The position numbers and the translations under genes are program-made. Below, one piece after another: positions 6,728-30,156 of a stretch of DNA of 32,994 bases. The notes below the pieces were generated by a model. That model was not told the origin of the DNA, did not search any database, and saw only the letters and a list, made by a program, of their open reading frames with translations. Numbering within the stretch: the first letter of the stretch is position 1; each line of letters opens with the position of its first letter. Source of the stretch: Phaeodactylibacter luteus (GTDB lineage Bacteria > Bacteroidota > Bacteroidia > Chitinophagales > Saprospiraceae); contig NZ_VOOR01000054.1 in NCBI RefSeq assembly GCF_007993045.1, forward strand, positions 1 through 32,994, in the 5' to 3' direction.

Positions 6728-7005
6728 TAGATATTTAGATGTTTTTATTTGAAAAAGGGAGCCGATTTGAAGGGCTGCAAAAACCTGGTCAACCCTATGT
6801 GCGCTATACCCCCTATCCTTTTCTTTCATTGCCCTAGGCAAGGGTCAAGGCTTTTTTTTTAACTCAAATACGCCAAAGTCAACCCCAAATTATTTTCCGC
6901 TCTCGCCTCGATTGACCCAAGAATCCCTGCTTTTATCCTACTTTAAGGCAAAGAAAACAAGGCGGCAGCCCAGTGTGCGGTGGTGCGGCCTGTTTGTGCG
7001 GATTA

Positions 7006-7037
7006 TTGAATGCCCAGGTGTGATAAAACCAAATTTG
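7006..7037 (+). promoter_or_regulatory. Putative promoter for the symporter at 7107
   Basis: TTG (7006-7008), a 21-bp spacer, then CAAATTTG (7030-7037), one base off TAnnTTTG. The leader would be about 63 bases and would contain the GCCGG/CCGGC hairpin. Confidence 0.35.
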
Positions 7038-7106
7038 CAGGCTGCCGGCTTCAACCGGCACCACCACTTGCCCGGGCTTTTTGACCAGAACACCACAACT
7101 GTAAAA

Positions 7107-8659: not shown

Positions 8660-9556
8660 GTGCTTGGCAGCCCGAGCCCGGTAAAGCCTCCGGCAAAGCC
8701 CGTAACTAAAGAAGGGGAAATCATACTCGATAACAACATGAAGATCCGATACCGATCATCGGGCGCTGGCCCTGTCACCCTCCTTATGGTGCATGGCCTG
8801 GGGAGCAACCGGAAAGCTTGGGCTAAGATCAGCCCAATGCTCGAAGGCCATTACCGGTGCATAGCTATTGACCTGCCTGGATATGGCAGCAGCTCGAAAG
8901 GGGATTACCCCTACAGCATCCCATTTTTCGCACAGAAGGTGAACCAGCTTGCCCATCACCTCGGAGCAAAGCGTATGGTATTGATGGGCCACTCTATGGG
9001 CGGGCAGATTGCGATAGCTGCCCACCTGCTCGAGCCAGCGTTGTTTGAGCAACTCATCCTTTTTGCCCCTGCAGGGTTCGAGACTTTCAATACGGCGGCC
9101 CGGGAGTGGCTGAGGGCATTCTACCAGCCGGCCTTGCTGAAAGCCATGCCGGTGGCTCAGATTAAACACAACTTTGAAGCAAATTTCTACCAGTTCCCCT
9201 CAGATGCAGCGTTTATGGTTGCAGACCGCCTGGCCATGCGGGAAGACCCGGAGGCCTACGCCCAATTTTGCCGGATGGTGCCACGCTGCGTTATGGGCAT
9301 GCTAGATTACCCGGTTTTCAACAAGCTCGGCCAGATATCAGCCCCTACGCTGATCATTTATGGGGAAGAGGACCAGCTTATCCCCAACAAGGTCCTCAAT
9401 CCAGGGCTGACCACAGCTTTGGTCGCCCAGAGAGGGGCGGCCCGGATTGGGAAATCAGAGCTCCATCTCCTGCCGCGTTGCGGCCATTTCGTGCCATGGG
9501 AATGTGCACAAGAGTCTGCAGCTCTGGCCCGGTCATTCCTAGAACGGATAGCCTAA
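8660..9556 (+). CDS. Alpha/beta-hydrolase fold protein
   Basis: A 298-residue hydrolase when read from the GTG at 8660. An ATG at 8738 (MKIRYRSSG) would give 272 residues and still keep the full fold. Visible elements are the oxyanion HG of LLMVHGLGSNRKAW (45-46), the nucleophile elbow GHSMGGQ with S112, the acid D238 in IYGEEDQLIP, and H276 in LPRCGHFVPWE. This is the complete Ser-Asp-His triad of epoxide-hydrolase/lactonase/esterase-type enzymes. It probably cleaves an ester, lactone or C-C bond of a small molecule. The 5-base gap after the symporter points to translational coupling and a shared substrate pathway. No signal peptide is seen, so it should act in the cytoplasm. Confidence 0.8.
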   Translation: MLGSPSPVKPPAKPVTKEGEIILDNNMKIRYRSSGAGPVTLLMVHGLGSNRKAWAKISPMLEGHYRCIAIDLPGYGSSSKGDYPYSIPFFAQKVNQLAHHLGAKRMVLMGHSMGGQIAIAAHLLEPALFEQLILFAPAGFETFNTAAREWLRAFYQPALLKAMPVAQIKHNFEANFYQFPSDAAFMVADRLAMREDPEAYAQFCRMVPRCVMGMLDYPVFNKLGQISAPTLIIYGEEDQLIPNKVLNPGLTTALVAQRGAARIGKSELHLLPRCGHFVPWECAQESAALARSFLERIA

Positions 9557-9849: not shown

Positions 9850-11418
9850 TCAAATCCAGTCCTGCAGATAAATGCTCACCAGGATAATCAGAGCGAAAAA
9901 GCCGAGCAGGATAAAGGCTTCGCGCCCTAAGAGCTGTTTCCAGTCTGGCTCAAAAGGCACAGCAGCAGCCCTGGGCTCACCGGGCAATACCCGGCTCAGC
10001 CCATACCCCAGCAGGAGGGTAATGCCCGCCCCGATCGCGTTCCACCAGAACCAGAAAATCTCCGGCACGTACAGCCAGAGGTAAATATTGGCCAGCACGC
10101 CTACTGCCAAGCCGATATTTGCGCCCAGGGCGTGGGCGCGCCGCGTCATGACCGCCAGAAGGAAGGTAGCCAAAATAGGGCCATAAAAAACTGAGCCTAT
10201 TTTGTTGATCGCCTCAATCACGGTATCTGCAATATCCCCAGCGTATACGGCCAGTACAATACACAGTACCCCCCAAAAGAAAGCCGCTAAGCGGGAGTAC
10301 TTCATGTACTGAGCTGTGCTGAGTGCTCTGCCGCGGCCAATAAAATCTTCGACCGTCACCGCAGACAAAGAGTTGATGGCCGAGCTGAGGGAAGACATCG
10401 CAGCGCTGAGTATAGCCACAATGAGCAGCCCAATGATGCCGTGCGGCAGGTAGTCTCGTATAAAAACCGGGATCATCATATCTGGCCTGTCCGCTGGGAT
10501 TTCAGCCTGAAATTCGGGCGTAAGGGCTACAAGGGTGCCAATGACCAAACCCATAATACAATAGGTGAGCGTGACAGGGAAGCGGATCAGCCCGTTGAAG
10601 AGCAGGGTTTTGCGCACAACGCCCATGTCCCTTGCAGAAAGGGTGCGCTGTGCTTGCGATTGATCTGTGCCATAATAAGAAACGTAAAGAAAAAAGCCCC
10701 CGAGGGCCATAGGCCAAAAGCCAAATTCCTCCCCTTTCTGGAAACCCCAGCCCTGAAAATCTACAGCATCTAGGCGGGAACGGTCTACCGCGGCGGTAAA
10801 GGCTTCCCACCCGCCTAGTTCTGCCAGGCCATAGCCCATGCAAAGGATGATGCCCAGAAATAAAATTATCATTTGGATCATATCCCCGTAAACGACCGCT
10901 TTCATACCGCCCTGCAGGGAATAGATCAGCGTGATGATGCCGATCAGCCCTAAAGTGGTGAAAAACGACAGCCCAATAACGCTCTCCAGGATAATGGAGA
11001 CCGCATAAACCATAACCCCCGTTGCGAATGCCCGGCTTACCAAAAAAACAGCGCTCAGCAACAGCCGGGTAGAAGCGCTGAAACGGCGCTCCAAATACTC
11101 ATAGATAGAAACGATGCCTGCCTGGTAAAGCGGTGGGATGAGCACGGCCATCAAAAACAGCATGGCGATGGGCACCCCAAACTCAAAACTGAGCCACTGC
11201 AGGCCACCGCCTTCCCGTAGCCCTACAAATGCCGGGGCGGAGATAAAACTGATGGCCGAAAGCTGTGTGGCCATTATGGATAGCCCTAGTGGGAGCCAGC
11301 CGAAGCTCTTGCCGCCCAAAAAATAGTCCTTCCCATCTTTCTGCTCCTTAAAAAAGTAGCCTAGCCCTAAAAAAGCGGCTGCATACACGGCTACGATAAT
11401 GTAATCCAGGGTGTTCAT
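9850..11418 (-). CDS. Sodium:solute symporter (SSS family)
   Basis: A 522-residue membrane protein with 13-14 hydrophobic segments, clearly of the SGLT/NIS-like branch. It has the TM1 region LSIMATQLSAISFISAPAF, the family signature GGMKAVVYGDMIQMIILF, YGTDQSQAQRTLSARD in the TM6-7 loop, and SAAMSSLSSAINSLSAV in TM8, where Ser pairs coordinate sodium. YGTDQSQ-type loops occur in transporters of sugars, sialic acid or similar solutes, but the substrate cannot be fixed. It is divergently arranged with the MarR regulator at 11622 across a 203-bp gap, so it is a plausible target of that regulator. The start at 11418 directly precedes MNTLDYIIVAVYAAAF, a normal TM1. Confidence 0.9.
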   Translation of the reverse strand: MNTLDYIIVAVYAAAFLGLGYFFKEQKDGKDYFLGGKSFGWLPLGLSIMATQLSAISFISAPAFVGLREGGGLQWLSFEFGVPIAMLFLMAVLIPPLYQAGIVSIYEYLERRFSASTRLLLSAVFLVSRAFATGVMVYAVSIILESVIGLSFFTTLGLIGIITLIYSLQGGMKAVVYGDMIQMIILFLGIILCMGYGLAELGGWEAFTAAVDRSRLDAVDFQGWGFQKGEEFGFWPMALGGFFLYVSYYGTDQSQAQRTLSARDMGVVRKTLLFNGLIRFPVTLTYCIMGLVIGTLVALTPEFQAEIPADRPDMMIPVFIRDYLPHGIIGLLIVAILSAAMSSLSSAINSLSAVTVEDFIGRGRALSTAQYMKYSRLAAFFWGVLCIVLAVYAGDIADTVIEAINKIGSVFYGPILATFLLAVMTRRAHALGANIGLAVGVLANIYLWLYVPEIFWFWWNAIGAGITLLLGYGLSRVLPGEPRAAAVPFEPDWKQLLGREAFILLGFFALIILVSIYLQDWI

Positions 11419-17053: not shown

Positions 17054-18802
17054 TCAAGATTTTTTATGCCTTTCATTGGTTTGTAATGCGGCAGGAGACC
17101 AGCCCGAAGGCTCTGTAGCCTCTTCTTCCAGGAAATAGGACACTGCGTCATGCACCTGCACAAATTGGTGCCTTTCCCCTATCCGCCCAGAAAGCCCATG
17201 CCGGTGCAAAGCATCACGGACCGGCCCTATGGCCCCTGAAATATAAAAAAGGATGCCTCGGCTTTCCAGCAGCTGTAGCAATTCAGATAGCACCATGGCA
17301 CCGCTCGAGTCCACGTCATGAATGCTCGAAGCATCCAATAACAGCAACTTCAGTGTACGGCCTTCTCCGGCAATCAGCTTTTCAATCGATTCCAGGAAAT
17401 AGCTGGCATTGCCAAAATACAGCTGTGCGTCAAAACGGACTATGAGCACTTCATCATGCTGACGTGCCTGCGAGAACCGGCTGATGCTGCGGTAGCGGCG
17501 CGAGCCAGGCAACTGCCCAAGCACCGCCAAGTGCGGCTTGGAATTGCGGTACACCATAATCCCTAACGACAGCAGCACACCGCTCAGTACCCCATTCTGA
17601 ATCCCTAACACCAAGGTAGCAACGAAGGTGGCCAGCATCGTCAGCCAGTCTCTGCGGTCGACGGCCCACAGGTGGCGGGCTTCCCGCCAATCCACCAAGT
17701 TGATCACTGCAGCAAGGATGATGGCCGCGAGCACCGCTTTAGGCAAATGGTAAAACCAAGGGGCAAGGTACACCAGCGCCAGTGCCAGTATGACTGCGCT
17801 GATCATAGAAGCAATGCCTGTACGGGCGCCTGCGTCACTATTGACGGCAGACCGGGAAAAACTGCCTGTAGTGGGAAAGGCCTGAAAAAACGCCCCCCCC
17901 AATTTGGTCGCCCCAAGAGCGATCAGCTCCTGATTGGGGTCTACCCGGTAATCACCGTGCTTGCGCTCCAGGGTTTTGGCAATCGCAACAGACTCGATAA
18001 AGCTTATGATGCAAACAGTAAAAGCAAGCGGAAAAACCTGCCCTAAGCGCTCCGCGCCCAGCTCTGGCCAAACGAAGCCAGGAAGCCCCGCAGGCACCTG
18101 CCCGATGACTGCTACGCCCTGCCCCTCCCAATCTAGCCCAGCTGACAAAAAGGTGCCGGCCAAGACTACGACCAATGCGCCGGGCACCGCACGGCTGGCC
18201 CGCTTAATGCCCCGCAACAACATAAAGCTTGCGAGGCTTATCCCTAACGTCAGCCCGTGCGCTGCATGCAGCTGGCTGAAGGCTTCTCCGGAAAGGAAAA
18301 AAATATTGTTGCTCCGGGGCAAAGGCAATCCTGTCAGGTTCCTCAGTTGGCTAAAGGCGATAATGAAAGCTGCGGCAGAAGTGAAACCTGCAATGACGGG
18401 GTGGGATAGAAAATTGACCAGCACCCCCAGCTTGAGGAACCCCATCAGCAGTTGTATAGCTCCCGCCACAAAAGCTACAGAAATGGCCAGGCTGACCATT
18501 TGCCCAGGCGGCAGCTCCCCGCCCAGCTGCTGTATCCCAGCCGCGATCAGCAGGGAAACTACCGCTGTAGGGCCTACCGACAGCTGCCGGGAAGTGCCCA
18601 GCACAGCATAAAAAAACAGTGGGATGAGGCTGGCATACAGGCCATACACCGGTGGCAGCCCAGCCAACAGGCCGTAAGCCATGCCCTGAGGCACCAGCAT
18701 AACGCCCACGGTGAGCCCGGCCTGCATATCCCCCCGCAAATAGGCCTTACGGTAGGCTGGCAGCCACGATAGAATGGGCATATACCGCGCCAGTTTTTTC
18801 AT
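17054..18802 (-). CDS. SulP family inorganic anion permease with STAS domain
   Basis: A 582-residue transporter. The membrane domain (about 25-430) begins with DMQAGLTVGVMLVPQGMAYGLLAGLPPVYGLY and SRQLSVGPTAVVSLL, the two N-terminal signatures of SulP/SLC26. A further family-type block, MISAVILALALVYLAPWF, follows mid-protein. The cytoplasmic STAS domain spans about 450-555 (VLIVRFDAQLYFGNASYF, LLLLDASSIHDVDSSGAMVL). SulP proteins move sulfate, bicarbonate or related anions. It lies 10 bases after the CstB-like gene, so here a sulfur oxyanion such as sulfite, thiosulfate or sulfate is the likely cargo; direction cannot be told from sequence. The start at 18802 follows GGGGAGG, a good ribosome binding site for this organism. 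Confidence 0.9.
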   Translation of the reverse strand: MKKLARYMPILSWLPAYRKAYLRGDMQAGLTVGVMLVPQGMAYGLLAGLPPVYGLYASLIPLFFYAVLGTSRQLSVGPTAVVSLLIAAGIQQLGGELPPGQMVSLAISVAFVAGAIQLLMGFLKLGVLVNFLSHPVIAGFTSAAAFIIAFSQLRNLTGLPLPRSNNIFFLSGEAFSQLHAAHGLTLGISLASFMLLRGIKRASRAVPGALVVVLAGTFLSAGLDWEGQGVAVIGQVPAGLPGFVWPELGAERLGQVFPLAFTVCIISFIESVAIAKTLERKHGDYRVDPNQELIALGATKLGGAFFQAFPTTGSFSRSAVNSDAGARTGIASMISAVILALALVYLAPWFYHLPKAVLAAIILAAVINLVDWREARHLWAVDRRDWLTMLATFVATLVLGIQNGVLSGVLLSLGIMVYRNSKPHLAVLGQLPGSRRYRSISRFSQARQHDEVLIVRFDAQLYFGNASYFLESIEKLIAGEGRTLKLLLLDASSIHDVDSSGAMVLSELLQLLESRGILFYISGAIGPVRDALHRHGLSGRIGERHQFVQVHDAVSYFLEEEATEPSGWSPAALQTNERHKKS

Positions 18803-18812
18803 GCCCTCCCCT

Positions 18813-20219
18813 TTATTGGCCTTCCACTTCTGGAAAAACTGCTGGCAGCCCACAGCCCAACAGCTCGTCCACCATGCCATGCAGATTGACAACAGTGTGC
18901 AGCCCCCTCGCTTTGAGTATAGATGCCGCAATCGTAGACCGGTAGCCACTTCGGCAGTGCAGATAGGTGCGCTTTCCGGGCTGCACCTCATGAAGGTGCC
19001 CGTTGATCGTCTCCAGAGTAAGCAGCTGAGCGCCAGCCACATGCCCTGCCTCATACTCCTCTGGGCGGCGGACATCAACAACGTGCTCCACCTGGCCAGA
19101 TTCATAGTCGGCTCCGAAAGCAGCTACCCCGATAGTCTCTATAGCGTCTATTTCCCGGCCAGCAGCTTCCCAAGCCTCAAACCCGCCTTTCAGATAGCCC
19201 AACGTATGAGTGTAGCCCACCCTTGCCAAACGCTCTACAGCCTCTTCCTCCTGCCCCTCAGGGGCTACCAATAAAATAGGCTGCTGCAGGTCGCTGATCA
19301 GCGTGCCAGACCAAGAAGCGAAATTGCCCTCCAGCCCGATAAAAATAGAGCCCGGGACAAAACCCTTGCTGAAGATGCTTTTCTCCCGCACATCCAAAAC
19401 AAGCGCACGCGCAGCAGTGGCCAACGCTTCGAAAGCATCAGGCTCAAGGGCCCGCAGCCCTTTTTCCTTCACCTCATCGAGGGCAGCGTAGCCCGACTTG
19501 TTGAGCTCGGCATTCTGAGCAAAGTATGGCGGGGGCGGCTGAAGCCCTTCCGTGACTGCTGCGACAAAAGCTTCAACCGATAGCCCCTCGCTAAGCGCGT
19601 AATTGGTTCTTTTCTGGTTGCCCAGGGTGTCCCAAGTCTCTGCACTCATGTTTTTGCCGCAGGCTGAGCCCGCCCCGTGAGCCGGATAGACCAGGACGTC
19701 ATCCGGCAGGGGCATGATCTTCTCCCGCAGGCTATTGTAGAGCGCCCTTGCCATATCCTCTGGAGAATGGCCGCTCTGCTGCGCAAGGTCGGGGCGGCCT
19801 ACATCCCCGATAAAGAGGGTGTCTCCTGTAAAAATAGCATAGGGCCGGCCCGATGCATCCCTCAAAAGGTAAGCCGTGCTTTCCGGAGTATGGCCTGGCG
19901 TATGCAGGGCTTGGATAGTAATAGCGCCCACCCGGAATACTTCCCCGTCCTGTGCTTCATACTTTTCATAGCCAGTGTGGGCACCGGGGCCATAAACAAT
20001 TGTCGCGCCCGACTGCTTGGCCAGGTCAAGGTGGCCTGAGACAAAATCTGCGTGGAAGTGCGTTTCAAAGACAAATTTGATTGTCGCACCGCCCTCTTTT
20101 GCACGTTGAAGGTAAGGCCGGGGCTCCCGCATAGGGTCAATGACCGCAGCTTCCCCTTCGCTTTGTACGTAGTAAGCACCTTGCGCCAGGCAGTTGGTGT
20201 ATATTTGCTGAATTTCCAT
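18813..20219 (-). CDS. CstB-like persulfide dioxygenase with two rhodanese domains
   Basis: A 468-residue three-domain protein. Residues 1-240 form a metallo-beta-lactamase-fold persulfide dioxygenase of the ETHE1 type: THFHAD (53-58), H110 in HTPGHTPES, D133 in FTGDTLFIGDVGRPD and H181 in YPAHGAGSACG. H54, H110 and D133 correspond to the two-His-one-Asp iron site. Residues about 260-355 are a rhodanese fold without the active cysteine (VAPEGQ where the loop should be), and about 365-465 is an active rhodanese with C422 in YLHCRSGYRS. This order matches CstB of Staphylococcus, which converts low-molecular-weight persulfides to thiosulfate. It heads an operon with SulP. The start at 20219 was chosen because the longer frame adds an unrelated 24 residues. 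Confidence 0.88.
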   Translation of the reverse strand: MEIQQIYTNCLAQGAYYVQSEGEAAVIDPMREPRPYLQRAKEGGATIKFVFETHFHADFVSGHLDLAKQSGATIVYGPGAHTGYEKYEAQDGEVFRVGAITIQALHTPGHTPESTAYLLRDASGRPYAIFTGDTLFIGDVGRPDLAQQSGHSPEDMARALYNSLREKIMPLPDDVLVYPAHGAGSACGKNMSAETWDTLGNQKRTNYALSEGLSVEAFVAAVTEGLQPPPPYFAQNAELNKSGYAALDEVKEKGLRALEPDAFEALATAARALVLDVREKSIFSKGFVPGSIFIGLEGNFASWSGTLISDLQQPILLVAPEGQEEEAVERLARVGYTHTLGYLKGGFEAWEAAGREIDAIETIGVAAFGADYESGQVEHVVDVRRPEEYEAGHVAGAQLLTLETINGHLHEVQPGKRTYLHCRSGYRSTIAASILKARGLHTVVNLHGMVDELLGCGLPAVFPEVEGQ

Positions 20220-20329
20220 AGTATTTAGTTTGTTCCAGAGCACGTGTTCCGCAAAGATGAGGCATAAAGCGCAGAATTTAAGGGAACCCAAGTAAAATCC
20301 TCCCCTGCGCAGGCTGCCCTTATTGGCCA

Positions 20330-20649: not shown

Positions 20650-21330
20650 ATGCCCAGATCCGCAACTGCCATATTATTCTTCAGCCGGTCGGCTTCTTGC
20701 GAAGCTAGGGCCAAGGGTTTTGGGCTTGTCCAGAAGAAAGCCAAGCGCCTGGCCAAAGCCCTCATCAACCGGGCCAGGCAAACCGTTGAACGGAGCGGGC
20801 TCGATGTCGTGAACAGCGATGAGCGCAGCCAGCGGGGCCATACTTTTGGGCAGAAGCTGAGCAACGCCGTAGCAGATGTATTCCGCTCTGGATATCAGCA
20901 AGTCATCATCATTGGCAACGATTGCCCTGGTATCACGCCAGCTGAAATCGGCAGGGCTGCTCAGTTGCTGGAAGAAGGCCATCAGGTGCTTGCGCCCGAT
21001 CAGAATGGGGGCGTATGGCTGATCGGCCTTCGCAAGGGGGCATTTGCCCCTGCTGCCTTTGCTGAGGTAGCGTGGGAGTCTGAGCAAACCTTTGCAGGCC
21101 TCCGCCAACTGCTCTCCGGTGTAACCCTTCTCCCACCGCACCGGTCTGTAGAAAAAAATACGGACCTTCGTTTTTTCTGGCAGCAGCACAAATCCTGGCT
21201 TTACCTTGTCGCAGAGCTGCTTTTTGAAGCGCCTCTGCCCCATCGCAATAAGCCTGCTGCTCAAAAAACTGCCCCCCTCCATGGGCAGCTCTCCCAAAGA
21301 GGCCCGCCTCAAGAGCCACTTCACTTGTAA
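20650..21330 (+). CDS. DUF2064 family (TIGR04282-like) glycosyltransferase-fold protein
   Basis: A 226-residue protein resembling DUF2064, a nucleotide-diphospho-sugar transferase-like fold that often accompanies ArsS. Family blocks seen are ILFFSRSAS near the N-terminus, QRGHTFGQKL (the GxxFGxRL-like element), VIIIGNDCPGITPAEI (the DxxG/DCP acid block) and APDQNGGVWLIGL. The usual basic KTRL element after the first strand is not clear, which may affect nucleotide binding. The ATG at 20650 was chosen over the GTG at 20644. A CACCTTTG at 20637-20644, one base off the -7 consensus, would place the transcript start almost on this ATG. SusC starts 243 bases downstream. The link to arsenosugar synthesis is inferred from family and neighbourhood. 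Confidence 0.72.
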   Translation: MPRSATAILFFSRSASCEARAKGFGLVQKKAKRLAKALINRARQTVERSGLDVVNSDERSQRGHTFGQKLSNAVADVFRSGYQQVIIIGNDCPGITPAEIGRAAQLLEEGHQVLAPDQNGGVWLIGLRKGAFAPAAFAEVAWESEQTFAGLRQLLSGVTLLPPHRSVEKNTDLRFFWQQHKSWLYLVAELLFEAPLPHRNKPAAQKTAPLHGQLSQRGPPQEPLHL

Positions 21331-21573
21331 ATACAAGTCTTTCACATTAAAACATCGGCGGCAGCCAGCCCCTACCTGCGCAAGAGGTATGGGCTATACG
21401 GTATGTCTTATCCTTTTCCGTGCCCAGCTAAAAGCGGTGTGCAGCTACAAACTGGCAGTACATGGGGGCGGCAGGGTTTGCAATACGGCCTCGTCCCAAA
21501 AAATGCAGCGGGATGAAGGGGCAGATGCAGTATGCTGCTACGCCAAATCTTATCCAACTTTAAAGCTAAGTTC

Positions 21574-24500
21574 ATGAATCACAAGACTGTGTGGGCAATT
21601 TTGGTATGCCTGCTTTTTGGTGCCGCATTGGAGGCACAATCGTTTGTAGTAACGGGCACCGTATCCGATGCTGCAGACGGGAGCCCCCTGATCGGCGCTT
21701 CCATCCTCGAAACCGGGAAGGCCAATGGGGCCGTCACCGATGTGGATGGCCAATTTTCTATTACGCTGACGGGCAGCTCCCCAACCATCGAAGTCAGCTA
21801 TGTGGGCTACCTTACCCAAACCCTTTTCGTAAGCCCCGATATGGCAGCCTCACCGCTTTCCATTGCCCTTGCCCCGGGGTCCAACCTCTCAGAGGTGGTC
21901 GTCACTGCCCTAGGGCTGGAACGCGACAACCGAGAGCTAGGCTATGCCATACAACAAATTGACAATCAAAAACTCACAGACGTACAGTCGGTCAATTTCC
22001 TCGACAACCTGGCGGGCCAGGTAGCCGGGCTCAGAGTGACTGCAGGGGCTACTGGCGTAGGCTCCACCAGTCAGATCATCATCCGTGGGCAAGCAAGCTT
22101 CACCAACAACAACCCCCTTTTTGTAGTCGATGGCGTGCCCATCAACAACAATACCATCATCAACCTGACCGATGAAGCTGCAGCTGGCTTTCAGGAAATT
22201 GATTTCGGCAATGGCGCTATGGACGTCAACCCTGCCGATATTGAGTCTGTCAGTGTACTGAAAGGCGCTTCTGCGGCGGCCCTGTACGGTACACGGGCCG
22301 CCAATGGCGTCATACAGATTACCACCAAGACTGGCCGCCAAACAAAAGGGCTGGGCGTAAGCGTCAATTCTACTTTTATGGTAGACAACCCCTTTCAGCT
22401 GCCTCGCTACCAGAACACCTACGGGCAAGGCCAGGGCGGCGAATTTGAATTTGTGGATGGCCTGGGCGCTGGCATATCAGACAACATCACCTACAGCTAC
22501 GGCCCTCAGCTGGATATCGGCCTGCTCATACCACAATTTGACAGCCCGGTAACGCTGCCTGATGGCACTGTAGTGCGCGGAGGGGACGTAGCAGTGCATG
22601 GCGGGCTCCCCATCACGCCTACCCCTTTTGTCAGCCGGCCTGACAACGTAAAGGACTTCTACGAGACCGGACATACTGCCATCAACAACCTCGCCATCAG
22701 CAATAGCGGAGAACGGGGCGATTTCCGGCTGTCGCTCACAGACCTAAGGAGCGAGAGCTTTATCCCTGGGGTAAACCTAGACCGGAAAACCGTAAATGCA
22801 CGCCTGGGCTTCCGACCTATTGACGGGCTATCTTTCAATGCAGGCCTGACCTACATCAACACGCAGTCTGACAACCGCCCGGCTGGGGGCTACGGGTCTG
22901 AGAACATCAACTACGACCTTACTGCCTGGCTTGGGCGGCAGACCGACCTGAACGCACTGCGCGATTATTGGCAGCCGGGGCTGGAAGGCGTGCAGCAATA
23001 CAGCTACAACTATACTTTTTTCGACAACCCATACTTCACCCTGCTGGAAAACCGCAACAGTTTCAACCGGGACCGCTTCTTCGGTTTCCTTTCCGCCAGG
23101 TACGAGGTATCGCCACAGCTGAGCTTCACGCTCCGCTCTGGCATGGACTACAGCAACGAGCAGCGGCAATTCCGCCGGGCATTCAGCAGCAACCGCTTTA
23201 GCCAGGGCGGTTATGCAGAAAACGATGTTTTTTACCGGGAGATCAACACCGATTTCCTACTTGACTTTCACCCCAGGCTGTCAGGCGACTTCAGCCTCAA
23301 CCTTTTGGCAGGTGCCAACCGGCTCGACCAGCAGGCACAAAACACACAGAGCCAAGCCCTCACCCTTGCTCAGCCCGGTATTTTCAGGCTAAGCAATGCC
23401 GCCAGCCCCGTTGAGATCTTTGACCAGCTGGCTGAAAAAAGGATCAACAGTGTGTACGGGCTGCTCAAACTGGGCTACCGGGGGTATTTGTTCTTGGATA
23501 TCACAGGCCGCAACGACTGGTCAAGTGCCTTGGCCACGCCACAGAACGCCGAGAACACCAGCTTCTTTTATCCATCAGCCAGCCTGAGCTTCCTGGCTGA
23601 CCGCGCCTTAAGCCTGCCCTCAAGCATCAGCTACCTGCAGCTGCGGGCTAGCATAGCCCAAGTGGGCAACGATACCGATCCCTACCGGACCAGCTCTACT
23701 TTCGTCGCTCAAGTCCCATTCAATGGCCAGCCGACTTTCTCAGAGCAGGCTGTGCTGGCAGCCCCGGGCCTGGTGCCGGAGCAGACCACAAGCGTAGAGT
23801 TCGGTGCTGACATACGGTTGTACGATGACCGCATTGGCCTGGATGTGACCTATTATGACCAAGTAACGGAAAATCAGATCCTCAGCCTGCCAGTGCCTTT
23901 ATCTTCCGGTTACCGCCAACAGATCATCAATGGTGGCCAGGTAAGGGCCAAAGGCTGGGAAGCTGTACTGACCGCTGTACCCGTCAAAAGCCAGAAATTC
24001 CGCTGGGCCAGCGCTTTCAACTTCAGCACCAACCGGGCTACTGTAGAAGAGCTGCCTGCCGGTACGGACCGCTTCACTTTGGCTTACAGCCGCGTCTACA
24101 ATAGCGTCAACCAAACCGTATTCTTTATTGTCGAGCCAGGGGGTGAAATCGGGGACATCTGGGGCACCGGTTACCTGCGCAACGAGGAAGGCGCTTTTGT
24201 GCTTACCGAAGAAGGCAACTTCATTGCGGACAATAACCTGCAGAAGCTGGGCAATGCCAACCCAGATTTCATCCTGGGCTTTCAGAACAACTTCCGTTTC
24301 GGCAATTTCGACCTTGGGCTGCTCTTTGATTGGCGGCAGGGCGGGCAGCTTGTCAGCCGGACCCTGAGCTTGGCCGGTGTAGGAGGCCAATTGGAAGAAA
24401 CTGAGTTCCGGCCAGAAGAAGGCATCATCATAGATGGTGTGGTCAATGTCGGCTCTGAGGAAAACCCTGTTTATGAGCCCAACACCACTCCTATCTCTGC

Positions 24501-24813
24501 TGAGAGCTACTACCGCTCATTCTATGACCGCAACCACGAGGAGAACAACATCTATGATGCTAGCTACCTCAAACTGCGGGAAGTAGCCCTGACCTACCGG
24601 CTGGGGCAGGCTCAGCTAGAGCAGACTTTCCTGCGCGGGCTAGGCAGCCTCAGCATCAGCCTTATTGGCCGCAACCTTTACGCTTGGAGCGAGATACCCC
24701 ACTTTGACCCTGAGCAATTTGCGATACAAGGGCAGAACTTGGTATCTGGCGTGGAAGACATGACCTACCCGAGCGCCCGTTCATTCGGGATCAACCTGGG
24801 CATTGAATTCTAA
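21574..24813 (+). CDS. SusC/RagA family TonB-dependent outer-membrane receptor
   Basis: A 1079-residue outer-membrane transporter. A signal peptide (1-22, ending LEAQ) precedes a carboxypeptidase-regulatory-like beta domain (about 25-105; VVTGTVSDAADGSPLIGASI, VGYLTQTLFV). A TonB-dependent plug (about 118-265) follows, with the SusC signature IIIRGQASFTNNNPLFVVDGVPI and SVLKGASAAALYGTRAANGVI. The rest is a 22-stranded barrel ending GINLGIEF, whose terminal phenylalanine suits the BAM machinery. It works with the SusD lipoprotein encoded 60 bases downstream, forming a lidded channel powered by TonB. No regulatory anti-sigma interaction domain is apparent. Its position next to ArsS-type genes, rather than glycan-cleaving enzymes, suggests a non-glycan or modified-sugar substrate; this is inference. 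Confidence 0.95.
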   Translation: MNHKTVWAILVCLLFGAALEAQSFVVTGTVSDAADGSPLIGASILETGKANGAVTDVDGQFSITLTGSSPTIEVSYVGYLTQTLFVSPDMAASPLSIALAPGSNLSEVVVTALGLERDNRELGYAIQQIDNQKLTDVQSVNFLDNLAGQVAGLRVTAGATGVGSTSQIIIRGQASFTNNNPLFVVDGVPINNNTIINLTDEAAAGFQEIDFGNGAMDVNPADIESVSVLKGASAAALYGTRAANGVIQITTKTGRQTKGLGVSVNSTFMVDNPFQLPRYQNTYGQGQGGEFEFVDGLGAGISDNITYSYGPQLDIGLLIPQFDSPVTLPDGTVVRGGDVAVHGGLPITPTPFVSRPDNVKDFYETGHTAINNLAISNSGERGDFRLSLTDLRSESFIPGVNLDRKTVNARLGFRPIDGLSFNAGLTYINTQSDNRPAGGYGSENINYDLTAWLGRQTDLNALRDYWQPGLEGVQQYSYNYTFFDNPYFTLLENRNSFNRDRFFGFLSARYEVSPQLSFTLRSGMDYSNEQRQFRRAFSSNRFSQGGYAENDVFYREINTDFLLDFHPRLSGDFSLNLLAGANRLDQQAQNTQSQALTLAQPGIFRLSNAASPVEIFDQLAEKRINSVYGLLKLGYRGYLFLDITGRNDWSSALATPQNAENTSFFYPSASLSFLADRALSLPSSISYLQLRASIAQVGNDTDPYRTSSTFVAQVPFNGQPTFSEQAVLAAPGLVPEQTTSVEFGADIRLYDDRIGLDVTYYDQVTENQILSLPVPLSSGYRQQIINGGQVRAKGWEAVLTAVPVKSQKFRWASAFNFSTNRATVEELPAGTDRFTLAYSRVYNSVNQTVFFIVEPGGEIGDIWGTGYLRNEEGAFVLTEEGNFIADNNLQKLGNANPDFILGFQNNFRFGNFDLGLLFDWRQGGQLVSRTLSLAGVGGQLEETEFRPEEGIIIDGVVNVGSEENPVYEPNTTPISAESYYRSFYDRNHEENNIYDASYLKLREVALTYRLGQAQLEQTFLRGLGSLSISLIGRNLYAWSEIPHFDPEQFAIQGQNLVSGVEDMTYPSARSFGINLGIEF

Positions 24814-24843
24814 CCCAGCAGCAAACCATACTTACCATCACTA

Positions 24844-24860
24844 CAGCCGCCCTGCGGCTG
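24844..24860 (+). promoter_or_regulatory. Hairpin between susC and susD
   Basis: CAGCCGC-CCT-GCGGCTG forms a perfect 7-bp stem with a 3-base loop in the 60-base gap between the two genes. It has no T-tract, so mRNA stabilisation or differential processing is more likely than termination. Confidence 0.4.
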
Positions 24861-24873
24861 CCAAGCAAAAATT

Positions 24874-26316
24874 ATGAAATATACCTACTTCCTGTTCTTG
24901 GCCCTGCTGCTGGCAGGATGCACAAAGGACTTCTCTGCTATCAACACCAATGAGAATGCACCTAGCACGGTGCAGCCGGAGCTGTTGCTCCGCCAAGTGC
25001 TATATGGCTATGGCGATCAGATGAGCTACGAGGGCTTCGTGGCCGGTAACCTGCTGAGCCAGCACTTTGCCATGATCGATTTCAACCTCTTCGACCGGCA
25101 TGCCCTCAACTCCCCTCAGGAAGGCGGCAACCCTTGGGACGTGCTCTATGTCAACCTCAGGGATACGGAATCTATCTTGGAGCAGAGCCAGGCCAACCCG
25201 GCGCGGGCTGTTTACGAAGGGCCTGCCCTTATCCTGAAAGCCTACCTGACGATGACGCTGACCGACCTCTTTGGGGATGTCCCCTACTTTGAAGCCGTGA
25301 AAGGGCGAAGTGAAGGCATCGTCACACCGGGCTATGACCGGCAAGAGGACATCTACCTTGCAGAAGGGGGCATACTCGACAATCTGGAAAAAGCGGTGGC
25401 TGCCATTGACAGCTACACCGGTGCGCAGCCCCTCAACGGCGATATCCTCTTTGAAGGGGATCTGGAGGCATGGGTACGCTTTGCCAACAGTCTGCAGTTG
25501 AAGGCCCTGATGCGCATTTCAGGCGTAGAAGATGTTGCCGCCGAGCTGCAAGCCCTTTATGACCTTGGCGGCGGCAACGGCAGCGCCCTCATCCGGAGCA
25601 ACGCCCAGAATGCTGCTTTTGATTTTGCAGCCGGCCCGCCCAACAGCTTTGCTTTTGCAACAGCGCGGGTAGGCCTTTTCAATGTCTTCCTAATGTCCGA
25701 GACGGCATCAGAAATTTTTGAACCCCTAAACGACCCCCGGGCAGGAGTTTTGTACCGCCCTAGCGCAGCCAACAACGACTTCAACGGCATCATCAACGGG
25801 ATAGATGCATCGAGCGCTATTGTACCAGACCAGTATGCACGCCCGGGCACAGTATGGCGGGAGAACACAGGCAGCCTCGACTTCAACTACCTGACAGCTT
25901 GGGAGGTAGACTTCCTGCTGGCAGAGGCAGCACTGCGCGGTTATATCAGCGCTGATGCAAAGGCGCTGTACGAATCAGGAGTAGAGAAAGCTTTTGAATA
26001 CTGGCTTACGGAACTGCCCTCGGGCTATCTGAGCAGCGACCCGGCTGCTTGGGATGCGAGCAAAGGGCTGGAGCAGATCATTACCCAAAAATGGATAGCC
26101 TCCATCGGCAACGCATACGAAGGCTGGGCAGAATGGCGCCGAACAGGCTTCCCTGAGCTCAAGCCGGTGGAAGCCAGCCTGAACGGTGGGCTATACCCGG
26201 TGCGCATGCCCTACCCTTCCGACGAGCAAGCCCTTAACTTTGAGAACTACCAGACTGCAGCAGCCGCGACCGATGGCAACTCTATCAATGCGCCAGTTTG
26301 GTGGGATGTAGACTAA
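24874..26316 (+). CDS. SusD/RagB family nutrient-binding outer-membrane lipoprotein (SusD-like 2)
   Basis: A 480-residue lipoprotein with lipobox LLAGC (C16). The N-terminal DFSAINTNENAPSTVQPELLLRQVL matches the SusD-like 2 subfamily. The helical repeats of the fold appear as ILKAYLTMTLTDLFGDVPYFEAV and LEAWVRFANSLQLKALMRIS. The C-terminal part includes FLLAEAALRGY, EQIITQKWIASIGNAYEGWAEWRRTGFP and a terminal NAPVWWDVD, all typical of the subfamily. It caps the SusC barrel on the cell surface and binds substrate. No glycoside hydrolase or sulfatase lies beside it, which is unusual for a polysaccharide utilisation locus. A GC-rich hairpin follows 23 bases after the stop. Confidence 0.93.
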   Translation: MKYTYFLFLALLLAGCTKDFSAINTNENAPSTVQPELLLRQVLYGYGDQMSYEGFVAGNLLSQHFAMIDFNLFDRHALNSPQEGGNPWDVLYVNLRDTESILEQSQANPARAVYEGPALILKAYLTMTLTDLFGDVPYFEAVKGRSEGIVTPGYDRQEDIYLAEGGILDNLEKAVAAIDSYTGAQPLNGDILFEGDLEAWVRFANSLQLKALMRISGVEDVAAELQALYDLGGGNGSALIRSNAQNAAFDFAAGPPNSFAFATARVGLFNVFLMSETASEIFEPLNDPRAGVLYRPSAANNDFNGIINGIDASSAIVPDQYARPGTVWRENTGSLDFNYLTAWEVDFLLAEAALRGYISADAKALYESGVEKAFEYWLTELPSGYLSSDPAAWDASKGLEQIITQKWIASIGNAYEGWAEWRRTGFPELKPVEASLNGGLYPVRMPYPSDEQALNFENYQTAAAATDGNSINAPVWWDVD

Positions 26317-26339
26317 AGAACGTACAATAGACTTGATGG

Positions 26340-26363
26340 GCGGGGGCTGCTGCCAGCCCCCGC
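26340..26363 (+). terminator. Terminator-like or attenuator hairpin between susD and the symporter
   Basis: GCGGGGGCTG (26340-26349) and CAGCCCCCGC (26354-26363) form a perfect 10-bp stem around the loop CTGC. Only TTTC follows, so readthrough is expected. The symporter ATG begins 17 bases later, so the stem may lower or separate expression of the downstream genes. Confidence 0.55.
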
Positions 26364-26380
26364 TTTCAAAACTGACCTCA

Positions 26381-27802
26381 ATGGTTACACTTCAATGGGT
26401 GCTGGTGATCGCCAGCAGCTTGCTCCTGTTTTTCTTATCGCCTAAGGCCACCACGGCCAGTGCTTTTTTCGGCGGCACCCGCCGTGAGCGATCGCCAGGC
26501 ATGATTGCGCTGATGAGCAGCCTGGTCATTTCCTGGCTCTTTGCCAAATCCATCACCAATGCCGCCAACCTAGGCCTTGCTTTTGGCCTGATCGGAGGGG
26601 TAGCCTATGCGGCCTACTATCTGAGCTTTGCTGTAGCCGGCTGGGTCATTTACCGTATGCGCACCTTAGGAGGCTTTAAGAGCATACACGATTTCCTTAG
26701 CCAGCGCTTTGGGCGGGGCGCACTGATCTTGTTCTCCCTGCTCATCTGTTTCCGGCTGTTCAACGAGGTCTGGTCCAACACCATGGTGATCGGGAGCTAT
26801 TTTGGGCAACCGGGCGAAGGGGCTTACTATGCGGCCATAGCTGTATTTACATTGTTAACCCTTGCCTATAGCCTGAAGGGCGGCATGGCTTCCTCCATAC
26901 TCACCGATATTGTGCAGATGGCCTTGTTCGGGGTATTGCTGGCTGTAGTGCTAGGGGCAATTTTTCCCAAAGTGGACTACCAGCCCGCCCCAATACTGAG
27001 CAGTGGGGCCTGGACAATGGCCACGGGGGGCAACCTCCTGCTCGTAGCCGTCTTGCAAAGCTTTAGCTACCCCTTCCACGATCCGGTACTGACCGACCGA
27101 GGTTTCTTATCCAGCCCGAAGACGACGCTCAAAGCCTTCCTCTGGGCCACCCCACTTGGCTTTATCTGCATTGCCCTGTTCAGCACCGTTGGGATTTACG
27201 GCGGCCTGGAAGGGGTATCTGGGCAGGCGCCCGTGGAGGTTGCTAAACTGCTGGGCGGCCCCATACTGCTCGTGATGAACCTCATCATGATTACTTCCGC
27301 AGCCAGTACGCTAGATTCTACTTTTACCTCCTTTTCCAAGCTCGCCATAATAGACCTGGGGCTGGGGCGGAAAGGAGAAGCCCTGGCCATTTCTGAGCTA
27401 AAACAATCTGGCCATAGCCATCGCAACGTATTTGTGGGTAGAAGCGCCATGGCCATACTTGTAGCCGCTGGGACATTGCCCGTTTTTTTCAACCCTGCAA
27501 TTTTATCAGCGACCACTGTATCGGGAGCTATGGTAGCCGGGCTTGCCCCTGTTTTTTGCCTATGGCGCGTGAAAGCCCCCCCGCTAAGCTTCTGGCTTTC
27601 TGTGGGATTTGGGCTACTTTGTGGCATTATTTACGCAGCCGGCTATTGGCCGGAAAGCTGGGCACTGACCACTGGCAAGTACAGCCATTTGTTGGCTGTA
27701 ACGCTGATAGAGCTGGCAGGATGCTTTGGCTTGTACGCCTTGGGCATTATCTTTCAGCCTGTACACGAAAACAAAGGGAATCCCGATGGATCAAAAAATT
27801 AA
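26381..27802 (+). CDS. Sodium:solute symporter-like transporter
   Basis: A 473-residue membrane protein with about 13 hydrophobic segments and SSS-type organisation. It has SSLVISWLFAKSITNAANLG (TM2 equivalent), YSLKGGMASSILTDIVQMALFGVLLAV (the family signature GG-x-x-S-x-x-x-D-x-x-Q), FSYPFHDPVLTDRGFLSSPKTTLKAF, and ITSAASTLDSTFTSFSKLAI (TM8 equivalent with the Ser/Thr sodium site). The SYPFHDPVLTDRGFL loop differs from the other two symporters in the window, so this is a distinct subfamily. Its last 17 bases overlap the metallophosphoesterase fusion gene, which indicates translational coupling. It probably carries inward the solute that the SusCD pair brings into the periplasm. Start at 26381; the in-frame start at 26333 would place the hairpin inside the gene. 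Confidence 0.82.
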   Translation: MVTLQWVLVIASSLLLFFLSPKATTASAFFGGTRRERSPGMIALMSSLVISWLFAKSITNAANLGLAFGLIGGVAYAAYYLSFAVAGWVIYRMRTLGGFKSIHDFLSQRFGRGALILFSLLICFRLFNEVWSNTMVIGSYFGQPGEGAYYAAIAVFTLLTLAYSLKGGMASSILTDIVQMALFGVLLAVVLGAIFPKVDYQPAPILSSGAWTMATGGNLLLVAVLQSFSYPFHDPVLTDRGFLSSPKTTLKAFLWATPLGFICIALFSTVGIYGGLEGVSGQAPVEVAKLLGGPILLVMNLIMITSAASTLDSTFTSFSKLAIIDLGLGRKGEALAISELKQSGHSHRNVFVGRSAMAILVAAGTLPVFFNPAILSATTVSGAMVAGLAPVFCLWRVKAPPLSFWLSVGFGLLCGIIYAAGYWPESWALTTGKYSHLLAVTLIELAGCFGLYALGIIFQPVHENKGNPDGSKN

Positions 27803-29045
27803 ATCGATAACTGTAGCGCACGGCCCGGTCCTCGTCTTTGGAGGCGCTTACTCCAACCTCGATGCTTTCATTGCGCTCAAGGCAGAAGCACAGCGCAGGG
27901 GCATCCCCCCTTCCAATGTTATTTGCACGGGCGATACGCCCGGATATTGTGCAGACCCTTCCGCCTGTGTCGATTTCCTGGAAGCCTGGGGCTGCCATAG
28001 CATCGCCGGCAATGTGGAGTCCAACCTGTTCAACGGGACCGACGATTGCGGCTGTGGCTTCGGGGATGGGAGCCGTTGCGATATGTTCGCCAAATTGTGG
28101 TATGACTATGCCCAACGGAACGTCACGCCCAAAAACCTGAAGTTTATGGGCAGCCTGCCCGATCAGCTGCGTTTCCAGTACGCAGGAAAGGCCATAACCG
28201 TGCTACATGGCTCACCGGCCAACCAATCAGAATTCGTGTGGCGGTCTACGCCTGCTGCAACCAAACTGGCCTACTGCAAGGCTGCCGGAGCAGAAGTCGT
28301 AATCGGCGGCCACTGCGGCCTGCCCTTCGCACATCAGATCGATGAGCGCCACCTCTGGCTCAATGCAGGGGTAATTGGCATGCCGGCCAACGACGGCACC
28401 CCCCGTACCTGGTTCCTGCTGCTCGACGATGCCAATGGGCTGGCATACACTTTTCAGCCTTTGGCCTACGACCACCGCGCAGCAAAAGCCAAAATGATCG
28501 ATGACCGCCGGCTACCCGTAAGCTATGCTGCTACACTGACAACCGGGATATGGGACAATACAGAAATCATGCCCCCTGCAGAAGCAGAACGGGAAGGCCA
28601 GGCTTTATCTCCTGAACAACTGGCTGCAGAAGCACACCAATACCCATTGGCTGCAGCAGCTGCCCAACCTGCTCAAAAGACTCCTTTACCACTCAAAAAC
28701 CTTACTAAAATGAACAAATATACCGATCCTAAGGACCTCAAGTCATTTGGCAAAATCACAGAATGGCAGGAAGACATGGGCCAAAAATTCTTTGATTGGT
28801 ACGCTGGGGTCACCGAGGGCGACTCCGCCCTTACCGAACGGGAAAAAGCACTGATCGCCCTGGCCGTGAGCCACGCCATTCAATGCTCCTACTGCATTGA
28901 TGCCTACACCACCAACAGCCTGCAAGCCGGAGCCGATGAGGAACAAATGATGGAGGCGGTACACGTTGCCGCCGCGGTCAAAGCAGGCACCACGCTGATC
29001 TATGCCCGGCAAATGCAGCGGCAGGTCGACAAAATCACCATGTAA
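27786..29045 (+). CDS. Fusion of calcineurin-like metallophosphoesterase and AhpD-like (carboxymuconolactone decarboxylase) domain
   Basis: A 419-residue two-domain protein. Residues 10-230 are a metallophosphoesterase with ICTGDTPGYCADP (GD at 49-50), IAGNVESN (GN at 75-76), VLHGSP (H141) and VIGGHCG (GH at 175-176). The first motif is FGGAYSNLDA, without the usual GDxH, so metal binding may be altered. An Ala/Gln/Pro-rich linker (about 265-308) leads to an AhpD-like domain from about M309 with the redox pair C367-x-x-C370 (IQCSYC) and H393 in EAVHVAAAVKAG. The second domain resembles the peroxidase-like protein that accompanies ArsS. M309 (28710) sits in an ATGA context, as if a start codon of a once-separate gene. 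It overlaps the symporter gene by 17 bases and precedes arsS by 40. Confidence 0.82.
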   Translation: MDQKIKSITVAHGPVLVFGGAYSNLDAFIALKAEAQRRGIPPSNVICTGDTPGYCADPSACVDFLEAWGCHSIAGNVESNLFNGTDDCGCGFGDGSRCDMFAKLWYDYAQRNVTPKNLKFMGSLPDQLRFQYAGKAITVLHGSPANQSEFVWRSTPAATKLAYCKAAGAEVVIGGHCGLPFAHQIDERHLWLNAGVIGMPANDGTPRTWFLLLDDANGLAYTFQPLAYDHRAAKAKMIDDRRLPVSYAATLTTGIWDNTEIMPPAEAEREGQALSPEQLAAEAHQYPLAAAAAQPAQKTPLPLKNLTKMNKYTDPKDLKSFGKITEWQEDMGQKFFDWYAGVTEGDSALTEREKALIALAVSHAIQCSYCIDAYTTNSLQAGADEEQMMEAVHVAAAVKAGTTLIYARQMQRQVDKITM

Positions 29046-29085
29046 GCTGCCCTACACACTTTAGCAGAATCTCAAACCACGCGAT

Positions 29086-30156
29086 ATGGCTATTAAGCAA
29101 AAAACAAAATCACTAACGGCAAAAGGGTCACAGCTGAGCGATACCTTCATTCAGCTGAACGTCCTCAACGGCAAAGACCTGTCAGACGCCAAGTTCCCTA
29201 AGTTCAGCGAACGCTTAGCCGAGCAGGGGCACAAGCCCTTTAAGCCTATAGACATTGAAATCTTCCAGCTCAATATTGGCAAATTGTGCAATCAGACTTG
29301 TGCGCACTGCCATGTGGATGCCGGGCCCGACAAAAAGCGGGAGAACATGAACCGGGAAGACTTGGAGCGCTGTGTCGAGATCATCGCTGCCACACCGAGC
29401 ATAACTACCGTGGACATCACCGGCGGCGCACCGGAGATGAACCCTCATTTCAGGTGGTTTGTAGAACAGTGCACCGCGCTCGGCAAACAGGTGATCGACC
29501 GCTGCAACCTCACCATCATCATGGCCAACCCTAAATACCGGGACCTTCCGGAGTTCTTGGCCGAACACAAGGTGCACGTCATTTCCAGCCTGCCCTATTT
29601 CTCCAAAAAGCGCACCGATGGCCAACGGGGGGATGGTGTTTTTGAAGACTCCATCAAAGCCCTGCAACTCCTCAACGAGGTAGGGTATGGCAAACCGGGC
29701 AGCGGGCTTAAGCTCGACTTGGTCTTCAACCCCTCTGGTGCTTACCTGCCTGGCAAACAGGAGACTCTAGAGGCCGAGTTCAAGCGTCAGCTCGACCGCA
29801 AATTTGGCATTGTTTTTAATCAGCTTTACGCCATTACCAATTTGCCCGTAGCCCGTTTTTTGGACTACCTCCTGGAAACCGGGAACTACGAAGAGTATAT
29901 GCAAAAGCTTGTGGATGCTTACAACCCTGCAACCGTTGAAGGGCTGATGTGCCGCAACACCATTTCTGTGAGCTGGGACGGCTACCTGTACGACTGTGAC
30001 TTCAATCAAATGCTCGACCTAAAAGTAGCTGCCAAGGGGCAGCACATTAGTACCTTCGATGCCGCTGAGCTCCGCAGCCGCAATATCGTGCTCAACCAGC
30101 ATTGCTATGGATGCACAGCGGGTGCAGGCAGCAGTTGCAGCGGCACAGTAGCCTAA
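29086..30156 (+). CDS. arsS: Radical SAM protein ArsS (arsenosugar biosynthesis)
   Basis: A 356-residue radical SAM enzyme. The iron-sulfur site is C68-x3-C72-x2-C75 (LCNQTCAHC), followed by the GGAPEMN motif for SAM binding (about 113-119). The C-terminal DUF3641-type region contains C289, C304 (LYDCDFNQML), C340 and C343 (HCYGCTAG) and C351 (SSCSG). This architecture is that of ArsS, reported in cyanobacteria to work with the methyltransferase ArsM in making oxo-arsenosugars by adding a 5'-deoxyadenosyl group. Some family members carry selenocysteine near the C-terminus; here the residues are cysteine. No arsM lies in the window. The enzyme follows the MPE-AhpD fusion in what appears to be one transcript. 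Confidence 0.9.
   Translation: MAIKQKTKSLTAKGSQLSDTFIQLNVLNGKDLSDAKFPKFSERLAEQGHKPFKPIDIEIFQLNIGKLCNQTCAHCHVDAGPDKKRENMNREDLERCVEIIAATPSITTVDITGGAPEMNPHFRWFVEQCTALGKQVIDRCNLTIIMANPKYRDLPEFLAEHKVHVISSLPYFSKKRTDGQRGDGVFEDSIKALQLLNEVGYGKPGSGLKLDLVFNPSGAYLPGKQETLEAEFKRQLDRKFGIVFNQLYAITNLPVARFLDYLLETGNYEEYMQKLVDAYNPATVEGLMCRNTISVSWDGYLYDCDFNQMLDLKVAAKGQHISTFDAAELRSRNIVLNQHCYGCTAGAGSSCSGTVA

Follow-up and report, generated by a model that had tools for sequence, protein, structure and literature searches.

A conserved SusC/SusD and sodium symporter module beside ArsS in Bacteroidota: a candidate importer of methylated arsenicals

What might a SusC/SusD pair and a sodium symporter bring into the cell for the radical SAM enzyme ArsS? 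The question is raised by a 32,994-base stretch of Phaeodactylibacter luteus DNA (bases 1-32994 of contig C252; genome 6.0 Mb), hereafter the window, which denotes the whole stretch analyzed. Six genes of the window are co-directional, as an earlier note on this DNA had read them, with short gaps or an overlap from SusC onward. They encode a DUF2064 protein, SusC, SusD, a sodium:solute symporter (SSS), a fusion of a metallophosphoesterase-fold (MPE) protein with an AhpD-like domain, and ArsS:

20650-21330, + strand: DUF2064 protein, type-1 (PF09837 75.9 bits; divergent TIGR04282 relative)
21532-24813, + strand: SusC-type TonB-dependent outer-membrane transporter (TIGR04056 571 bits, cut-off 368; Plug and CarboxypepD_reg matches)
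24874-26316, + strand: SusD-type surface lipoprotein, SusD-like_2 (PF12771 276 bits; lipobox-like LLLAGC at the N-terminus)
26381-27802, ATG at 26381, + strand: predicted SSS (SLC5-type) sodium:solute symporter (PF00474 28.2 bits, cut-off 22.8)
27786-29045, + strand: MPE-AhpD fusion, whole gene (PF12850 32 bits, cut-off 27; TIGR04169 146 bits, cut-off 120)
27786-28640, + strand: MPE domain of the fusion (metallophosphoesterase fold, remodelled metal site, invariant cysteines)
28713-29045, + strand: AhpD-like domain of the fusion, C-terminal part (TIGR04169, 146 bits against a cut-off of 120; CxxC present)
29086-30156, + strand: ArsS radical SAM enzyme (TIGR04167 441 bits, cut-off 300; PF12345 192 bits; CxxxCxxC present)

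DUF2064 and SusC are separated by 201 bases, SusC and SusD by 60, SusD and SSS by 64, and the fusion and ArsS by 40; the SSS and MPE frames share 17 bases (a distance of -17), so that the remaining gaps from SusC on span 40 to 64 bases. The answer we favour, at a probability of about 45%, is that these genes represent a conserved Bacteroidota uptake module that would import a methylated arsenical, or a precursor of one, for arsenosugar synthesis by ArsS.

Conservation of the module and its tie to arsS

ArsS scores over the TIGR04167 cut-off in 56 of the 118 genomes of the family and order to which the window belongs, its own genome included. We fetched 57 arsS places, comprising the 55 other genomes over cut-off and two with partial matches (G076, G110). 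SusC-SusD-SSS-MPE lies beside ArsS-AhpD in three other genomes, each time in a different arrangement: L073 has the order of the window, L070 reads AhpD-ArsS-DUF2064-SusC-SusD-SSS-MPE, and L047 carries the two halves on opposite strands. The module is absent from the fetched stretch at the remaining 54 places.

A broader view was obtained from the symporter itself. An alignment of four SSS proteins (A1), drawn from loci picked for lying beside arsS and hence subject to selection bias, retrieved 350 SSS relatives in named genomes, the best 80 of which were kept; L073 and L097 are one genome, that of Neolewinella aquimaris (G011). Partners of SSS in these best 80 loci are MPE (74), SusD (73), SusC (71), ArsS (52) and AhpD (52). 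With stricter scores, among the 52 loci that reach 21,200 bases, SusC and SusD are found 52 times each, MPE 51, a type-1 DUF2064 50, and ArsS and AhpD 44 times each. The one-strand gene order is kept in Lewinella/Neolewinella, Flavobacteriaceae and Pedobacter loci. Twenty-eight loci lack arsS in the flank, several of them clipped by contig ends; at genome level, arsS is over cut-off in 74/80, with 52 in the flank and 22 elsewhere in the genome. The arrangement is beyond chance and recurs in several families of the phylum.

For genome-level co-occurrence we used MPE as the marker, which is separated by score, in three genome samples that were not picked by linkage. In the sample drawn from the family and order of the window, an MPE of more than 300 bits occurs in 14 of 118 genomes (next best 119), and arsS is over cut-off in 12 of these 14 (Fisher p 0.003, n=118, genomes being counted as independent here and below); one exception, G014, has two short low-score arsS matches only and the other, G040, none. 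Among 199 Flavobacteriaceae, 148 have arsS and 30 an MPE of more than 400 bits (next best 125); all 30 carry arsS (Fisher p 7e-5, n=199), with MPE and arsS starts less than 10 kb apart in 28. The class sample holds MPE in 14/395 genomes with eight family codes, and arsS occurs in 13 of these 14 as against 66/395 overall (Fisher p 3e-10), the exception being G721 (89% complete). In eight of these 13, MPE and arsS are separated by more than 60 kb or lie on different contigs; the tie is therefore more than a matter of neighbourhood. The samples overlap to some extent: two of them share G000 and G011 as module genomes, certain Flavobacteriaceae appear again in the class sample (for instance, G504 and G319 have identical coordinates), and several of the named loci fall in sample genomes (G125 matches G014, G143 matches G027).

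These counts bear on the simplest alternative, namely a SusCD and symporter for ordinary nutrients whose place next to arsS is accidental. The SusCD and SSS families are generally known to be large in Bacteroidota and the window holds two further SSS genes, as would suit a chance neighbourhood; repeated linkage in several families and co-occurrence even of unlinked genes speak against it. On the 80-locus partner counts and the presence of arsS in 74/80 genomes we reject this explanation as very improbable. The association of the module with arsS is firm. The earlier note had made co-occurrence across Bacteroidota a test of its proposal, an uptake system dedicated to ArsS chemistry; both the closest SSS relatives and the three samples bear out the co-occurrence, and the proposal itself is well supported.

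The module also differs from systems already described. Like the SusCD systems of polysaccharide utilisation loci, it has a SusC/SusD pair in the same order and on one strand; unlike them, it has no carbohydrate-active enzyme among the scanned neighbours, its partners being a sodium symporter, an MPE-fold protein and ArsS. In agreement with the earlier reading, we found no glycan-degrading enzyme among the 19 window open reading frames, a subset of those present, that were put through a Pfam scan, and on this subset the locus does not qualify as a polysaccharide utilisation locus. With the arsenosugar cluster (ArsM, ArsS, TIGR04169, TIGR04282, TIGR04283), the window shares ArsS and the AhpD-like part, both over family cut-offs, and the flavobacterial locus L141 has the full set around the module. 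The SusCD-SSS-MPE module, in contrast, is absent from the cluster descriptions found in the open-access literature. The absence of any described SusCD system of this kind, also supposed earlier, held in a full-text search of that literature judged by titles and the starts of abstracts, with subscription journals mostly outside its scope.

ArsM genes and the possible cargo

Adenosylation of arsenic is the ArsS family activity given in a published account (PMC12159101, citing Cheng et al. 2021). For the window enzyme, the same activity is predicted from family membership. Neither ArsM nor PNP nor TIGR04283 was seen next to the window ArsS; in the same genome, contig C190 carries TIGR04283 and contig C259 a generic ArsM. 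Elsewhere the module can sit within full arsenosugar operons, as observed in Flavobacteriaceae. The Winogradskyella locus L141 reads AhpD, ArsS, type-1 DUF2064, SusC, SusD, SSS, MPE, rhodanese, TIGR04282, PNP, ArsM, FA_hydroxylase, DUF547, TIGR04283, with ArsM matching NF038099 at 570 bits and both TIGR04282 and TIGR04283 over cut-off. PNP is present in 32/80 loci, and ArsM in 16 of these 32.

A contrast appears when arsS genomes are divided by the presence of the module. In the own-order sample, a dedicated ArsM (NF038099 over cut-off) occurs in 0/12 arsS genomes with the module vs 20/44 without (Fisher p 0.005), and in Flavobacteriaceae in 16/30 vs 101/118 (Fisher p 3e-4), both comparisons being uncorrected for ancestry. 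A late step of the pathway is kept: TIGR04283 is over cut-off in 37 of the 40 module genomes tested, G027, G344 and G646 being without; these 40 comprise all 14 own-order module genomes, the remaining 12 from the class sample and the 14 Flavobacteriaceae that lack a dedicated ArsM. Seven of the 14 own-order module genomes, that of the window included, carry a generic ArsM (NF008823) over cut-off, and G020, G040 and G060 a weaker one; no match at E 1e-30 is found in G011, G014, G021 and G042, although G014 has a 64-bit NF038099 match.

Because ArsS is kept, the late TIGR04283 step is kept and dedicated methylation is often absent, the pattern fits, as we infer from gene content, a methylated arsenical entering before ArsS. 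Such a compound would be the likeliest cargo since the module accompanies ArsS but not always a dedicated ArsM. We considered whether the module replaces ArsM outright and rejected this as a general rule: both occur in L141, and 16/30 flavobacterial module genomes keep a dedicated ArsM. The ligand proposed in the earlier note (an arsenosugar, an arsenolipid head group or a sugar precursor) fared less well than the uptake system itself, as scarcity of the dedicated ArsM with ArsS retained leans towards a methylated arsenical instead, subject to the same lack of phylogenetic correction.

Part of that proposal survives as an alternative, the import of finished arsenosugars or of arsenolipid head groups, from algae for instance, which the cell would degrade to a dimethylarsenical and reassemble, or use as they are. 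SusCD is generally known to suit larger ligands, the named hosts include marine genera, Polaribacter and Winogradskyella among them, and a glycosyltransferase-like DUF2064 and a phosphoesterase-fold protein accompany the module. Direct use of a finished sugar would, however, make ArsS dispensable, yet arsS is nearly always retained; we hold this alternative to be rather unlikely.

A less probable reading concerns the product: ArsS and its neighbours in these Bacteroidota might make something other than an arsenosugar, with the module feeding that pathway. The function of ArsS here is taken from family membership, and three of the 14 own-order module genomes (G011, G021, G042) show only weak methyltransferase scores for ArsM, as this explanation would allow. 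Against it stand the dedicated arsenosugar ArsM in 16/32 PNP loci and the TIGR04282 and TIGR04283 proteins of L141, and we judge it improbable.

The transporters and the MPE-fold protein

SusC and SusD both match their families (TIGR04056 571 bits, PF12771 276 bits) and are encoded by adjacent genes; the Pfam matches of SusC do not include an STN domain. For the symporter, the score against TIGR00813 is 38.7 bits, under the cut-off of 184; PF00474 is passed at 28.2 bits vs 22.8, and the SLC5 fold is recovered by Foldseek (SGLT2, E 3e-12). The AlphaFold2 model (pLDDT 86) matches SGLT, SiaT, DUR3, CHT1 and NIS structures, none of which pointed to a ligand. The fold is that of SLC5/SSS symporters, and a Ser-Thr pair aligns with SGLT1 residues 392-393 (S392-S393), which we take to be the Na2-site serines; the pair is invariant in 36/36 alignment rows. 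Sodium coupling is predicted, the comparison covering two Na2-site residues. In sequence, the window SSS resembles the known SLC5 carriers weakly (36 bits to the closest chain of solved structure), and its substrate is not readable from them. The two other SSS genes in the window (6912-8654 and 9850-11418) match PF00474 more strongly, at 117 and 149 bits.

The nearest solved folds, which belong to carriers of sugars, sialic acid, urea, choline and iodide, would suit yet another cargo: an arsenic-free co-substrate, such as a sugar, glycerol derivative or nucleoside, for the arsenosugar pathway downstream of ArsS. The TIGR04283 protein retained in 37/40 module genomes agrees with such a role. 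This alone explains neither the fewer dedicated ArsM genes of module genomes nor the invariant cysteines of the MPE protein described below, and we consider it unlikely.

The AlphaFold2 model of the MPE domain (pLDDT 93.4) has 3rqz and the Ap4A hydrolase SapH (3qfm) as nearest structures. With these calcineurin-like phosphoesterases it shares the fold and the site-2 ligands D, N, H and H; it differs from them in carrying GxY for DxH, GNV for GNH and GHxG for GHxH (the last His replaced by Gly) in the 3rqz alignment, and in four invariant family cysteines. The canonical two-metal signature (DxH, GD, GNH, H, GHxH) is therefore incomplete, GD and the remaining ligands being retained. All 77 MPE homologues compared (74 from the 80 named loci, plus L047, L070 and the window) carry these changes, which replace the catalytic His and three motif residues belonging to a single metal site; the assignment of residues to the two sites follows the phosphoesterase literature. 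D50, N76, H141 and H176 and cysteines 55, 88, 90 and 98 are likewise invariant (77/77), and Cys47 is found in 75/77. The one-metal site, the conserved thiols and the AhpD-like fusion together suggest that the protein handles a thiophilic compound rather than cleaving phosphate esters. Lewinella relatives and the Maribacter locus L153 carry the fusion as well. We rejected the idea that it reflects a frameshift or a misassembly, long fused frames being also present in L088, L089, L091, L093, L094, L096-L100, L106 and L153. In the fetched stretches of L170 and L172, an MPE homologue occurs without SSS or SusCD, and the protein may thus function without the transporter.

The DUF2064 protein is not a TIGR04282 member by score (79 bits vs a cut-off of 134), and the type-1 protein of L141 reaches 105 bits. 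The type-1 consensus lacks the N-terminal Gk.ktRl-like stretch found in the remaining DUF2064 proteins encoded at these loci; the separation into two sets (60 and 39 rows) was by position and is rough. In L107, L113 and L120 (two Pedobacter and one Bacteroidetes metagenome-assembled genome), an extra DUF2064 gene precedes AhpD-ArsS besides the one before SusC.

A putative path for the arsenical, and the surrounding genes

Under the methylated-arsenical reading, SusC and SusD would catch the compound, dimethylarsinate or something giving rise to it, at the cell surface and move it across the outer membrane on TonB energy, and SSS would use sodium to carry it across the inner membrane. The remodelled MPE-fold protein with its cysteines, which in the window is joined to an AhpD-like thiol protein, would bind or reduce the arsenical and pass on dimethylarsenite, presumably the ArsS substrate, to which ArsS would attach a deoxyadenosyl group. 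A wider form of this scheme, in which organic arsenic is scavenged as methylated or algal arsenicals through the TonB-dependent SusCD and the symporter, is reduced or carried by a repurposed one-metal, cysteine-bearing phosphoesterase fold, and reaches ArsS with no need for a dedicated ArsM in the same cell, seems to us doubtful.

Several observations weigh against the import of a methylated arsenical by this module. Six of the 80 genomes with the closest SSS relatives lack arsS over cut-off; G125, G136 and G144 have short low-score matches resembling arsS pieces, and G123, G138 and G141 have none. SusCD is not constant, since SSS and MPE occur without it in the fetched stretches of L173, L175, L183 and L184, and MPE occurs without SSS in those of L170 and L172. 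In L183 and L184, SSS-MPE follow ArsS with SusCD absent, and the stretch of L183 is also without ArsM. To judge from these gene sets, the core would consist of SSS and MPE, with SusCD and type-1 DUF2064 a frequent addition. In the window's own order, the module lies beside arsS in only 4/14 genomes, and the treatment of genomes as independent affects all Fisher p-values. A dedicated ArsM is present in 16/30 flavobacterial module genomes, and the window's own genome has its generic ArsM (370 bits). The ArsM contrast is uncorrected for ancestry, an ArsS tree of 100 sequences being too poorly resolved for this (3 of 97 inner branches starred); the tree samples 100 of the 148 flavobacterial arsS genomes (30/30 with the module, 17/17 with neither module nor dedicated ArsM, 53/101 others), and its row G147, probably in a wrong frame, sits on a very long branch. 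Finally, a molecule as small as dimethylarsinate might get by without SusCD.

One further element lies within the module, between SusD and SSS:

26340-26363, + strand: hairpin of 10 perfect G+C-rich pairs, read by eye

It has no long T run and could set a different expression of the two halves. Promoter and terminator scans gave matches no more frequent than in shuffles, and a Bacteroidota-type promoter motif has no match between 20 and 32 kb. The gene 3' of ArsS, encoding CorA at a gap of about 135, was considered as a member of the unit and rejected, as it is present in 0/80 related loci. Upstream of the module, on the - strand, 17054-19105 and 18813-20291 encode a SulP-type sulfate permease with a STAS domain and a metallo-beta-lactamase/rhodanese protein; a 59% identical relative of the latter adjoins arsS in L069. 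An alpha/beta hydrolase is encoded at 8660-9556.

The module bears on the purpose of arsenosugar synthesis in bacteria and on the source of the arsenic used. If the proposal is true, SusCD would here belong to a conserved importer tied to ArsS and serve a metalloid compound, the remodelled MPE-fold protein would be a candidate for arsenical handling, and organoarsenic uptake in Bacteroidota would become directly testable.

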